From Fibrobacter sp. (GTDB taxonomy: Bacteria; Fibrobacterota; Fibrobacteria; Fibrobacterales; Fibrobacteraceae): a stretch of DNA of 64,000 nucleotides. Position 1 is the stretch's first letter. The number at the start of each line of letters is the position of its first letter. The position numbers were made by a program, and so were the translations under genes. Below the pieces are notes generated by a model. It was not told where the DNA came from and made no database searches. It was given only the letters and a program-made list of their open reading frames with translations. Positions 13,374 to 35,756 of the stretch are shown here, piece by piece. The stretch is taken from assembly GCA_017503015.1 (NCBI GenBank), contig JAFVTX010000050.1:1-64000 (forward strand), read 5' to 3'.

Positions 13374-14423
13374 TTACTGTCTTATATATTCTTCCATATC
13401 TTTTTCATCTACAGAATGAATAAAGTACGTGCAATCTTTAGGCTCGGCTTTTCCGTTGTTTTCTATTTTCAACACATCAAGAACGGCTCCTAGGAAATTG
13501 CTTTTTATGGCGTAATTCACATTTTGAGATGTAACATCTTTAGATGGTCTTAGAGAAGCAACTATAATGCCGATAACTTTATCGCCTCTGATTAAAGGCC
13601 CCCCTGAATTGCCCGGTTGGATGGCAGCGTCTATTTGATACGATTTTACATCGTCCCTCAACCCTTTCCTCGAAGAAATTATTCCCTTTGTGGCCTTCAA
13701 ACTTTGTCCTTGGACGCTTGTTTGTGGATATCCGTACGCAACCACATCTTCTCCGATGTCATAAATTTTTCGGTCAATAGCGCAAGCCGTTAATTTCTTT
13801 GTTGACCGAAGAATTGCCAAATCAAGGGCGACATCTTGATAAATGACCTCAAGATCTATAAAGTTTGTATCAAGCTCATCTTTTAAGGCATAAAGAAACT
13901 CGTTACCGTTAACTACATGCTGATTAGTGACAATAATGTTTGAATTAATAGCAAACCCACTTCCTGTTCCTGAATTGGATGTTCCGATATAATCAAAGAA
14001 TAATTGAGAATCGTACATTCTTGTGACGGATGCGTATTCATCTCCAAATTCTACGATAACGGATGCACGAGTAGTGTCGTTTGCATAATACCCCTTATAA
14101 ACAAGAATTTTTTCGTTGTTTTGGTCCATTCTTTCGGATTTATTCGTAATAATCAAGGAATATGTTCGCGGATTGTTCTTTTTGTTGTACAAAACTTCCA
14201 TATTCAGGTTTTTATCCGTTACTTGAACGTTTATTTTTCCAGACAAACCCGTGAAACGACCGTCTGTATAACTATAAGCGCGGGCCGAATAATAGAAGAC
14301 TCCCGCGTCTTTAAAAAACAATGTTTTTACAGATGGATTCGGTGAAGTTGTATTGTTTGATGGAACGGCCCACAGGAATTGTGTGCAAATTAAGCACAAC
14401 AGCGCAAGAGTTGTTTTCTTCAT
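13374..14423 (-). CDS. Secreted trypsin-like serine protease (S1, HtrA-type core, no PDZ)
   Basis: The protein has 349 residues. A signal peptide (MKKTTLALLCLICTQFLWAV) is followed by about 120 residues of beta-rich sequence without a known family. The protease core carries the full triad: H169 in VTNQHVV, D201 in ALDLAIL and S273 in GNSGGPL. After the core only about 50 residues remain, so there is no PDZ domain as in DegP/HtrA. Secretion to the periplasm or surface is expected. It heads an AT-rich minus-strand group of small secreted or membrane proteins that may be substrates or partners. A structured RNA candidate lies about 150 nt upstream on the same strand. Confidence 0.85.
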   Translation of the reverse strand: MKKTTLALLCLICTQFLWAVPSNNTTSPNPSVKTLFFKDAGVFYYSARAYSYTDGRFTGLSGKINVQVTDKNLNMEVLYNKKNNPRTYSLIITNKSERMDQNNEKILVYKGYYANDTTRASVIVEFGDEYASVTRMYDSQLFFDYIGTSNSGTGSGFAINSNIIVTNQHVVNGNEFLYALKDELDTNFIDLEVIYQDVALDLAILRSTKKLTACAIDRKIYDIGEDVVAYGYPQTSVQGQSLKATKGIISSRKGLRDDVKSYQIDAAIQPGNSGGPLIRGDKVIGIIVASLRPSKDVTSQNVNYAIKSNFLGAVLDVLKIENNGKAEPKDCTYFIHSVDEKDMEEYIRQ

Positions 14424-14483
14424 TCCCTGATCCTTTCTGCCAAAGGCAGTCTGCGAGCAGCGGTCTCGTTCTGAAAGCCGAAT

Positions 14484-14520
14484 GAGATTGCTTCACCCCT
14501 ATTCAGGGTTCGCAATGACA
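14484..14520. repeat. REP-like palindrome (AGATTGCTTC...GCAATGAC type)
   Basis: The minus strand reads GTCATTGCGAACCCTGA, a spacer, AGGGGTGAAGCAATCTC. This type is widespread in bacterial intergenic DNA. It lies between the RNA candidate and the protease start. Confidence 0.65.
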
Positions 14521-14576
14521 AGATGCCATATCTTTTCTTGGAAAACAAAAAAAGGTATGGTGTCGCTCGGCTTTTG

Positions 14577-14762
14577 TTGTGAAGGCTCTGGTAAACCTGC
14601 CGCTCAGAAGCACAACGGTAAGCGTAAACTCACCGTGGGCATACGCCCAACGACCCACACCCGATCGGTGTGAGTGTTCGTCTTCACCCTGAACGGCTAC
14701 GTACTTGTGTACAGACCAAAGTTTACCAGACTTTTCACAACGGGAACAAGAGTACTACTCTA
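14577..14762 (-). ncRNA. Candidate structured RNA, copy A
   Basis: A long-range stem pairs 14587-14596 with 14721-14730 (10 bp perfect) and 14577-14583 with 14734-14740 (7 bp perfect), separated by a GGC/CTT internal loop. Inside are hairpins at 14637-14648 (GGGC/GCCC) and 14650-14681 (ACGA and CCCACACC against their partners). The same scheme with different stem bases occurs at 35423-35640. The minus strand is favoured because one conserved pair is G-U there but A-C on the plus strand, and a T-run (14547-14553 as A) follows on the minus strand. It may be a leader of the protease gene or a free RNA. Confidence 0.55.
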
Positions 14763-14904
14763 ATTCAATATGTCACTAGAAATATATATAAAGAAAATGG
14801 AAAGGGGATACCCCGAAAATGGCAAAAAAACAGGATTATGGGAGATTCCGGGTCAAGCCCGCAACGCCTGGCCTGCAAAAAACACGCGAAATTTGCGATT
14901 ATTC

Positions 14905-33076: not shown

Positions 33077-35320
33077 CTAATCCTTTATGCAACGTATATT
33101 CAGAAATATATCAGGCAGGTTATACAGACGTTCTTTCGAAATGTATAGAGTACGATTAATCATGATGTAAACAAATTGGTTGTATTCATCTATTGTAGAC
33201 GTCCAAAATCTGTTTCCAAATGGATAGACGGAGAATCCAAATTTATCGTTTCCACCGCCATCTCTCCAAAGTAATTTTGAACTAAGTGAGCGTCCGGCAT
33301 GATTTCCTCCTGCATTCCATTGTCTTCCACCGGCCACAGATATCAATTTATTCCATTCCGATTCCGTTGGCAAATGCCATCCTTCCGGGCATATTCCTCG
33401 CAAAGGATGTTTCAAAAAGAGTTCTTGTTGTTTGCGGTTCTGATTCTGAAAATCCGCTTCTGATATATTCAATGCTGCAAAGCCGTTATAGAGCCTACCA
33501 AAAAGATTGCATACATTTTCATTGTTGTCAGTACATTTGCTGTTTTTTAATGCAGGCTCACTTCCGTAATAATTGAGATTTTCGGCCATCCAAACTTGGT
33601 CTCCAATTTGTACAGAACGATACACATGGTCATCTCTAAAATCTTTAAAGTAAGTGTAGTGGGGAATTATTTCCCCAGCTATGATTTTCCCAGGAGCAAA
33701 TTGCAAATTTTTAGTATTTACTTCTGTTGTATTTTGCCATTCTTCATCAAAACAGACTGTAAGAGCATATTCAGTCAATTCATTTTCTTTAGTACATATT
33801 CCAACTTCTTTTTCTACAAGATAGGGTTTTCTCAGTAATTTCTTTTTTCGTTCACATACAAGTGTGGTAGAATCTGTTCCATTGAAATAGGATATCATCC
33901 AATTTGATTCTGCATCATTACAGAGGTCCTGACCGATGGAATCAAGCAACGCTGGTTCAGGATTTATTAATTTGCCTCTATGTTTATCACAAATAAACAA
34001 ATCGGAATTAATTTTTTTCACCCAACTAAATTTAGGATTTTCACAAGATTTATGACTAGCCAATTCAAATTGGTCTAGACGACGATATTTACCTGTTTGT
34101 GCATTACACAGAAATGGAGTAGTCGCTGTTTCGCTGTATTTCAATCCAGTAGGTAGTTCCTTGATTTGAGCTGAGTCGCCTGTTGTACAGGTTAAATCCA
34201 AATAATGAGGATAATCGTTTAAAATCTGAGAACAAGAAAAAATATTGACCCCAAAATTTTCTTCAACATATTTATCTATAGCAGGAAACAATATGCAAGC
34301 TCCCTTCACATTTGAGAGCGGTATGTCACCATAGCTCGCATAATAATCCGTTATTTTTTTTGCAAGTTCTTTTTCTTCAATTTTTTCATATTTTTGAACA
34401 AATTTAACTTTTTCAATCCATACATCATCCATTTCAAACCATGGAGTCTTTTCTAGTTCGAGGCTGAATTTTCTTATTATATTTTCAAAAGGCTTTTGTG
34501 TTCTTTTCACCTTCATTTTCTTAGTAACATCTACTTCGATTTTTCCGGAAATACATTCTTTTTTCATATTCTTTGAGAATTCATCTAAATAAGAAAGACA
34601 TTTCTTTTTTTTCTTGGCTGATCCGTCAAAAGAACAAATTATTGACTCACGAAAATAGCCCTTACTATGATGATACTGAGCGTCATTTTCTATAGAAGCC
34701 TTGATAACCGAGTATATTCCTTCCCACTTTTCGAGACACTCTTTCTTGGGCAACTTTTCCTTGACAACCGTATCAATTTCTGCAGTGATAGGGAATTCGA
34801 CAAGACCCTTTTGGTCCAATTCTTTCAAATAGTTCAACTGGCTTTCCATATCTAACTTGCTTACGTATAAACTACACACGCTTATATTTTCTTTCGAGTT
34901 GCAGAAATTACCTTTGTAATGATCTATATCTTCCATAGAAGTTGATTTCATCCAATCAATACATGCGCTCACATCAAATTCCGATTTTCCAGAACAAATT
35001 TGAGCGATGTATTTATCTACAAATTCAGGAGAGCATTCAGAAGATTCATCCTTGCTACAATTATTGTATTTGTCTAGACCTAGTATCCATTTATACCCTG
35101 TTAACGGGCCACCATAAATAAATTCAGCATCTTTAATAGATAAGGATGCCGGCAAGTAAACTCCACGAACATTCATTTTTTGTTTTAAATTCTGCGCAGT
35201 CTTATAGTCGCCTTTATCAATGGCGTTTTTCAGGCCGGGATGAACTTCTGCTAGCACGTATGGCACTGATATGAACGCAAAGACAATTGCGAGCAGATGT
35301 CTGCATATTGCTATGGGCAT
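33077..35320 (-). CDS. Secreted protein with C-terminal FISUMP (TIGR02145) domain
   Basis: The protein has 747 residues and a strong ribosome site (AAGGAG 6 nt before the ATG). A signal peptide (MPIAICRHLLAIVFAFISVPYVLA) precedes about 530 residues of Lys/Glu/Cys-rich sequence with no recognised family. The C-terminal ~180 residues are the Fibrobacter succinogenes major paralogous domain: VYRSVQIGDQVWMAENLNY, GRLYNGFAA, GICPEGWHLPTESEWNKL and a final FLNIRCIKD. The function of that domain is unknown. The gene is much more AT-rich than its neighbours and is preceded on its strand by copy B of the structured RNA. Confidence 0.88.
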   Translation of the reverse strand: MPIAICRHLLAIVFAFISVPYVLAEVHPGLKNAIDKGDYKTAQNLKQKMNVRGVYLPASLSIKDAEFIYGGPLTGYKWILGLDKYNNCSKDESSECSPEFVDKYIAQICSGKSEFDVSACIDWMKSTSMEDIDHYKGNFCNSKENISVCSLYVSKLDMESQLNYLKELDQKGLVEFPITAEIDTVVKEKLPKKECLEKWEGIYSVIKASIENDAQYHHSKGYFRESIICSFDGSAKKKKKCLSYLDEFSKNMKKECISGKIEVDVTKKMKVKRTQKPFENIIRKFSLELEKTPWFEMDDVWIEKVKFVQKYEKIEEKELAKKITDYYASYGDIPLSNVKGACILFPAIDKYVEENFGVNIFSCSQILNDYPHYLDLTCTTGDSAQIKELPTGLKYSETATTPFLCNAQTGKYRRLDQFELASHKSCENPKFSWVKKINSDLFICDKHRGKLINPEPALLDSIGQDLCNDAESNWMISYFNGTDSTTLVCERKKKLLRKPYLVEKEVGICTKENELTEYALTVCFDEEWQNTTEVNTKNLQFAPGKIIAGEIIPHYTYFKDFRDDHVYRSVQIGDQVWMAENLNYYGSEPALKNSKCTDNNENVCNLFGRLYNGFAALNISEADFQNQNRKQQELFLKHPLRGICPEGWHLPTESEWNKLISVAGGRQWNAGGNHAGRSLSSKLLWRDGGGNDKFGFSVYPFGNRFWTSTIDEYNQFVYIMINRTLYISKERLYNLPDIFLNIRCIKD

Positions 35321-35422
35321 ATAAACTCCTTGGTTAATTTCGTTGGAGTTCCGCCCCTGCTAGACAAGGAACTTCGCCAAATTTTGTATGAATACAAAAA
35401 AGGCGCAGATCGTTGCGTTTAC

Positions 35423-35640
35423 CTAGATGAGGCTGTGCATGCCTAATAGACGATAAACACAAACGACCCACGCCCCAAACGGGCTGTTGCCCTTGGTCTA
35501 TACGACCAAAAACCGACCGAAAAGTCGGCACGACAAACTGAAGCATACCGTAAAAACGGCATACCTGCGTGAGCGTTCGTCCTGTTCCCGTCTATTTGAA
35601 ATTTGCACATTTCATCTAGAGAACAAGAGCAAAAACTCTT
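35423..35640 (-). ncRNA. Candidate structured RNA, copy B
   Basis: Nested stems are visible: 35423-35430 with 35612-35619 (8 bp), 35434-35438 with 35605-35609 (5 bp) separated by a GGC/TT loop, 35445-35452 with 35589-35596 (8 bp), and ACGA-CCCACGC (35463-35473) with GCGTGAG and TCGT (35567-35580). Inside the last stem sit four small hairpins (GGGC/GCCC, TTGGTC/GACCAA, CCGAC/GTCGG, CCGT/ACGG). The plan matches 14577-14762 with different bases in the stems. A T-run follows on the minus strand (A-run 35396-35401), about 75 nt before the FISUMP start codon. Confidence 0.6.
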
Positions 35641-35756
35641 TCACTCTCTAAAAATAACTTAAATATGGGCAAAACGCTCAGCAAATTTACAAAAATAGAC
35701 GATTTTGTGAAGAAAACGGCTATTTTGAGCCAAATTGTAAAGCCTAAGGAGGATTT

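Follow-up and report, generated by a model that had tools for sequence, protein, structure and literature searches.

Leader elements and their genes in the window

The window analysed here, a 64-kb stretch of Fibrobacter DNA, carries on its minus strand two genes that are each preceded by a copy of the same structured RNA (all feature coordinates below refer to this strand). Specifically, copy A, which runs from 14752 to 14547, lies upstream of a secreted trypsin-like peptidase gene (13374..14423; PF13365, E 3.7e-19), and copy B, from 35629 to 35396, lies upstream of a gene for a Fib_succ_major (FISUMP) domain protein (33077..35320; PF09603, E 9.8e-22) with the Shine-Dalgarno sequence AAGGAG at 35326..35331. 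The family model recovers the two at 14548-14752(-) (50.1 bits, E 2.5e-9) and 35396-35629(-) (85.7 bits, E 4e-17), with no third copy in the 64 kb. These are the same copies and gene starts (14423 and 35320) that a sequence-only reading of this DNA had named, and the covariance-model search of Fibrobacterota that it had proposed bore out its claim of a structured RNA with compensatory changes: many covarying homologues were recovered, with covariation far above that of shuffled and slid controls. With respect to extent, the RNA is present in the interval given by that reading (14577-14762), but its 3′ end was missed, because the terminator and U-tract are part of the element and carry it to 14547 and 35396; the promoter-like box at 14786-14780 also falls outside. 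The terminator, the logic of the switch, the copy number and the restriction-modification targets described below had all gone unseen.

The RNA has a fixed geometry relative to a promoter-like box and the gene. In copy A, a promoter -10-like box, TATATTT, occupies 14780..14786 and is followed by GACATA (14769..14774) at the presumed transcript start, while in copy B a promoter-like TTATTTTTA (35649..35657) takes the TATATTT position. Across the family, TATATTT occurs 10-110 nt upstream of the RNA in 46 of 110 copies and farther upstream in 3 of 110, with preferred distances of 25-34 and ~61-66 nt before the model start, and all 63 intervals that run from terminator to start codon lack it. GACATAG follows it at a fixed 4-7 nt, again at the presumed transcript start, and in the window's own genome the combination TATATTTN4-7GACATA occurs solely at four copies of this RNA; GACATAG may act as an operator at the DNA level, as a feature of the start site or as an RNA element of the 5′ end. 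A same-strand gene with a ribosome-binding site lies downstream, mostly across a gap of 40-115 nt (median ~70 nt). This sequence signature is the one expected of an attenuator, namely a 5′ leader with a promoter-like box upstream and none directly before the gene. Ribosome-mediated attenuation of the trp type was considered and ruled out, since a conserved leader peptide is absent from the 84 leaders inspected (Shine-Dalgarno-preceded reading frames of at least 6 amino acids occur in 14 of them, at scattered positions).

The interval between terminator and gene has features of its own. In copy A, a dispersed repeat (CATTGCGAACCCTGAA..GGGTGAAGCAATC) lies within 14423-14546 and recurs near other copies (L008, L010). 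In several other leaders (L018, L008, L006, L004), short hairpins just past the terminator would be able to pair with the Shine-Dalgarno sequence, as with GACTCCG...CGGAGGC before the ATG in L018, and these may represent a second level of control.

The element is far from confined to the two copies first described. A BLAST search with copy B brought up additional full-length copies in its own genome, whose count was 11 on reading the loci and is at least 12 by model; one of these loci holds an additional second, diverged RNA unit. A covariance model built from 7 trimmed own-genome copies, with the terminator tail omitted (R1), matches 41 of 61 genomes of the family and 30 of 30 in the genus. 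A second model built from 69 copies (R2) matches 80 of the 151 Fibrobacterota genomes sampled. Within the window's genus it matches 66 of 67 genomes; elsewhere, its matches fall in several other genera of the same family (g2, g3, g10 and one g5) and in 3 genomes of two other families. Fibrobacter genomes typically carry 3 to 20 copies, and the maximum is 21 model matches in a single genome. Most other Fibrobacterota genera give zero R2 matches and so also act as a negative control for this model. Among 84,980 GTDB species genomes, the core pattern is confined to records with Fibrobacter or Fibrobacterales in their name, and the RNA is absent from 50,697 phage records, 72,556 plasmid records and the IMG/VR viral contigs.

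In the homologues from the two other families, the sequence has diverged and, as judged by eye, the helix order, the complementary H1 and H2 loops and the U-tract before the gene are kept. The genes behind these diverged homologues (L156-L166; G065, G090, G098) appear by eye to be mostly of surface type rather than restriction systems. As the sequence-only reading had surmised, the RNA has no counterpart among known families: at the gathering score, the only Rfam 15 matches in the window are tRNAs, and at E values up to 5 across 11 loci nothing falls on the RNA, the one chance-level snoRNA match lying outside it. Taken together, these results define a large and previously uncatalogued RNA family in Fibrobacter and its relatives.

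Fold and covariation

The fold was examined in 69 short-form copies aligned with MAFFT on sequence alone. The named structure comprises helix A-A′, helix B, hairpin H1, helix C (between the H1 and H2 loops), helices D and E, and hairpin H2. Paired cells make up 87.9% of it versus 74.3% in shuffled alignments, double changes are seen at 32 of 46 pairs, and the covariation score is 0.378 versus 0.148, with none of 500 shuffles reaching the real value; shifting the partner by one column lowers pairing to 47-49%. The stem order first described for the window copies, with an outer stem (B), a GGC-type asymmetric loop, an inner stem (C), a further stem (D) and a core (E), is all present, as are the CACAC/GTGTG of copy A and the CACGC/GCGTG of copy B, both of which lie in core E. 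The strongly conserved core sequence includes GRCGARC and GUCGUUUGUGCUUAU.

Helices B, C, D and E together form a long-range rod with very strong covariation. Helix B (14735..14741 with 14576..14582 in copy A; UAGAUGA at 35612..35618 with UCAUCUA at 35424..35430 in copy B) covaries at 7 of 7 pairs, and helix D (GCCGUUCAG at 14689..14697 with CUGAGCGGC at 14599..14607; 35590..35596 with GUCUAUU at 35445..35451) at 6 of 6. The orientation of the functional molecule is also evident from the pairing, as G-U outnumbers A-C by 135 to 17 in E and by 120 to 4 in the terminator, which identifies the minus strand as the RNA. The choice of strand made earlier from a conserved wobble agrees with this, as 67 of the 69 copies have the wobble as U-G on the minus strand.

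The two strands of helix C lie in the loops of H1 (14718..14734 in copy A, 35598..35613 in copy B) and H2 (AGG..CCU at 14583..14598; AGGC..GCCU at 35430..35444), and they fall into discrete classes, including CUACCAC/GUGGUAG, CUGGUAA/UUACCAG, CGACCAA/UUGGUCG and CGGCAAA/UUUGCCG. The third pair of H2 covaries by itself (GC 22, UG 16, CG 9, UA 8), which indicates that H2 is a real hairpin and makes a loop-loop contact the probable form of helix C for at least part of the cycle. In copies of the CUGGUAA class, C could also be a plain helix of 12 bp. A pseudoknot formed by C was rejected, as C is nested in the rod by its order and the covarying H2 pair favours the loop-loop contact.

Outside the rod, helix A-A′ pairs the CUUAUUCUC strand with GAGAAUAAG, with 92-93% of cells paired and covarying in the family alignment. 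In copy A, strand A (CUUGUUCCC, 14742..14750) pairs imperfectly with A′ (GGGUGAAG, 14682..14689); the corresponding strands of copy B are CUUGUUCUC (35619..35627) and GGGAACAGG (35581..35589). The conserved AACAAGAG flank noted at the outset exists, but it is not passive, as its complement holds strand A (CUUGUUCUC), the partner of the internal A′. A small 5′ hairpin, P0, is found at 14750..14760 in copy A (GAG UAGUA CUC) and at 35626..35639 in copy B (AGAG UUUUUG CUCU); its partner is invariant, so covariation is uninformative here.

Predicted terminator and antiterminator states

The antiterminator hairpin E is formed by a 5′ strand (GACGAACACUCACACC at 14667..14682 in copy A; 35567..35581 in copy B) and by E′ (GGUGUGGGUCGU at 14650..14661; GCGUGGGUCGU at 35463..35473). 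In copy B these are separated by a multi-hairpin insert of the long subtype (35474..35566), with inserts of a similar kind in L004-L008 and other long-form copies, while copy A has extra hairpins of its own at 14615..14648. The 3′ strand of E and a conserved linker that extends it can also pair with the tail right before the U-tract, in a 17-bp helix whose 3′ strand lies at 14554..14573 in copy A and 35402..35423 in copy B, followed by U-tracts at 14547..14553 and 35396..35401. This intrinsic terminator helix is 94.8% paired in the 69 copies, with double changes at 11 pairs and 0 of 500 shuffles equal to it on any measure. The rod and the terminator are therefore mutually exclusive through their common strand.

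The covariation of this common strand follows both partners at once. At columns 78/93/182 (E 5′, E′ and terminator 3′ strand), 62 copies have G-C-G and 4 have A-U-A, and at columns 76/95/180 the order is reversed, with A-U-A in 63 copies and G-C-G in 2. Since E′ covaries with both partners, both the antiterminator and the terminator states are conserved under selection, and this three-way covariation is, at the level of sequence, the strongest single evidence for a switch. The leader therefore has the two elements that distinguish an attenuator, a pair of mutually exclusive helices with a common strand, one of them an intrinsic terminator, and both of them conserved.

Folding models suggest a part for A-A′ in the choice between these states. 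When growing prefixes of the transcript were folded, A-A′ was present in 64 of 69 copies once E had been transcribed, and it was lost, with the rod formed, in ~60 of 69 once B′ had been transcribed; A-A′ excludes the rod in these models. In a nested nearest-neighbour energy model, whose terms cover neither pseudoknots, loop-loop or tertiary contacts nor kinetics, the terminator lies a median of 13.1 kcal/mol above the free fold, whereas it is level (median -0.2) with E when A-A′ is held. The expectation that the terminator would appear in the full-length minimum free energy (MFE) fold failed, as it does so in only 3 of 71 copies; the full-length MFE fold of copy B forms the terminator. As the rod wins the free fold in most copies, the modelled default could be ON, and the terminator would then come into play only in response to a signal. 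From these models we read the element as a poised three-state attenuator in which A-A′ would serve as anti-antiterminator, the rod as antiterminator and the terminator as the off state. Alternatively, A-A′ could exist alongside the rod as a true pseudoknot instead of replacing it.

Several loci carry two such units in series. These tandem attenuators (L010:1511-2020; L131, L139, L140, L148, L162) lie mostly before m5C methyltransferase genes and consist of a full unit followed by a second A-H1-A′ unit with its own E/E′/terminator set (GACTCGCC / GGCGAGGAGTGAGTC / CTCCTCGCC plus a T-run).

In terms of mechanism, helix A-A′ around H1 would form first, in the 5′ part of the transcript, as an anti-antiterminator. 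With A-A′ held, B and D would be blocked and E would be about as stable as the terminator, such that RNA polymerase could stop. Formation of the rod, perhaps nucleated by the H1-H2 loop-loop contact, would instead lock E, disfavour the terminator by ~13 kcal/mol and let transcription reach the gene. On this view, a ligand, protein or trans RNA would turn the gene off if it favoured A-A′ and on if it released strand A or stabilised the rod.

Targets, rival readings and related systems

The genes downstream of these leaders were counted without retrieval bias by taking all copies found in 11 genomes (n=78). Within 2 kb, 18 of the 78 lead a PF02384 or PF01555 (N6/N4 methyltransferase) gene, against 0.13 expected (P 2.9e-32), and none has such a gene on the opposite strand or on the downstream side; conversely, 18 of the 64 PF02384/PF01555 genes in these genomes sit behind the RNA. 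Annotation of 71 representative downstream proteins with Pfam and PADLOC identified N6, N4/N6, HsdM, type III Mod, m5C, D12-class and EcoRI-type methylases, along with type IIG enzymes, a Tsp45I endonuclease, a type ISP enzyme, UvrD-type helicase-nucleases and Fib_succ_major proteins. One target is MAD2 of the methylation-associated defence system (MADS), with 802 bits versus the NCBI cut-off of 720. The restriction-modification targets thus span the unrelated types I, II, IIG, III and m5C. Among the fetched enumerated leaders, ~40% stand before genes for restriction or defence and roughly one in four before lipoprotein-like genes, figures that come from a rough sorting by motif in which tandem units are counted twice. 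Copies A and B both belong to the surface/secreted group, and the earlier statement that the RNA precedes secreted proteins, which is true of both, describes only part of the family's targets. Restriction genes account for fewer than half of the enumerated targets, which leaves a single physiological theme unproven.

Two further patterns were seen among the downstream genes. A conserved 810-aa protein (MSLFEKLQKASSEEDVKAEYIKAL...) with, by eye, an NPPY methylase motif and a GAYYTP segment typical of such enzymes lies behind the RNA at seven loci (L090:711-3140 and homologues in L013, L041, L062, L092, L098 and L102), and is unmatched in Pfam, PADLOC and NCBIfam. In addition, a pair of RNAs ~1.8 kb apart recurs across species (G012:C9, G036:C1, G038:C3, G045:C48, G047:C5), and in the pairs that were read the first copy leads a DUF4417-like gene (G036, G045, G047) and the second a type III-like methylase (G036, G047).

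Given these sequence features, we consider it very likely that the element is a cis-acting leader RNA family that controls the downstream gene through the choice of intrinsic terminator or antiterminator, and the best reading is of an RNA that is riboswitch-like in anatomy and used as a shared switch. A narrower form of this leader attenuator, a strict riboswitch whose conserved core binds a metabolite and so sets the terminator, is possible: the multi-helix fold, strongly conserved core, several copies per genome and overlap with the terminator are the usual riboswitch layout, whereas the targets have no metabolic pathway in common and strand A (CUCUURUUCUC), among the best-conserved stretches, may be a contact for protein or RNA. 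Because the same switch stands before unrelated restriction-modification and defence genes and before surface or secreted genes, one signal could set all of them. The broader proposal that a single signal of infection or stress, be it a molecule, a protein or an RNA, sets restriction-modification, other defence operons and surface proteins across Fibrobacter is doubtful at present, and we offer it tentatively.

Readings in which the RNA acts other than on its own gene fit less well. A free-standing trans-acting sRNA of ~200 nt, with the downstream gene having its own start, would explain the promoter-like box at one end and the strong terminator at the other, and the A and A′ sequences, being conserved between copies, could pair in trans. 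Such an sRNA is nonetheless improbable, given the lack of a promoter-like box between terminator and start codon, the same-strand gene behind nearly every copy, the non-random bias of targets towards methyltransferases, and a terminator strand whose complementarity to E′ is maintained along with that of the antiterminator; the terminated leader could act in trans as a by-product. The place of the RNA ahead of long operons, such as those for restriction systems and large surface proteins, would also suit a processive-antitermination RNA of the put/EAR type that modifies RNA polymerase, but a terminator of its own that shares a strand with the antiterminator is the logic of local attenuation and renders this quite improbable. 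The many dispersed copies per genome, some of them before horizontally mobile restriction systems, and the similarity of some long-form copies for ~50 nt past the terminator recall a mobile element, an attC-like recombination site or a repeat spread as DNA. That origin is extremely improbable in view of the lack of matches in phage, plasmid and viral records, the fixed geometry to promoter and gene, and the strand-specific covariation (G-U, not A-C), which a function in DNA does not predict.

Control of restriction-modification is usually seen as a matter for each system one by one, through C proteins, methylase autorepression or antisense RNAs. If the attenuator reading is true, separately acquired and unrelated defence operons (types I, II, IIG, III, m5C and MADS) would come under one control at the RNA level, which opens the directly testable question of the signal sensed in Fibrobacter, a cellulose degrader of ecological importance; its genomes also gain a large family of RNAs that had not been catalogued. 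A search of the open literature, with subscription journals outside its scope, found no published structured RNA in Fibrobacter and no attenuated or structured leader common to restriction-modification systems.

Among generally known systems, the closest in logic are protein-dependent attenuators such as the PyrR type and transcription-terminating riboswitches, which likewise are 5′ leaders with an antiterminator exclusive of an intrinsic terminator and occur in several copies per genome; the PyrR type also has a third, upstream helix able to block the antiterminator. The Fibrobacter RNA differs from these in its long-range rod, its probable loop-loop contact and its lack of an Rfam match, and in that it stands before restriction-modification and surface-protein genes instead of the genes of a metabolic pathway. 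Two small hairpins with mutually complementary loops, here H1 and H2, are also a feature of purine- and lysine-type aptamers. In the Fibrobacter RNA, by contrast, a large D-E arm lies between the hairpins and the 5′ strand A pairs into this arm; the sequence is unlike theirs, and the Rfam models give no match on it. With respect to restriction-modification itself, EcoRI and Eco29kI are controlled by system-specific antisense RNAs from reverse promoters, in a review of such control that leaves riboswitches unmentioned (PMC3874152). The likeness to these systems lies in the RNA-based control of a restriction-modification operon, whereas the Fibrobacter leader is structured, would act in cis and is common to many unrelated systems.
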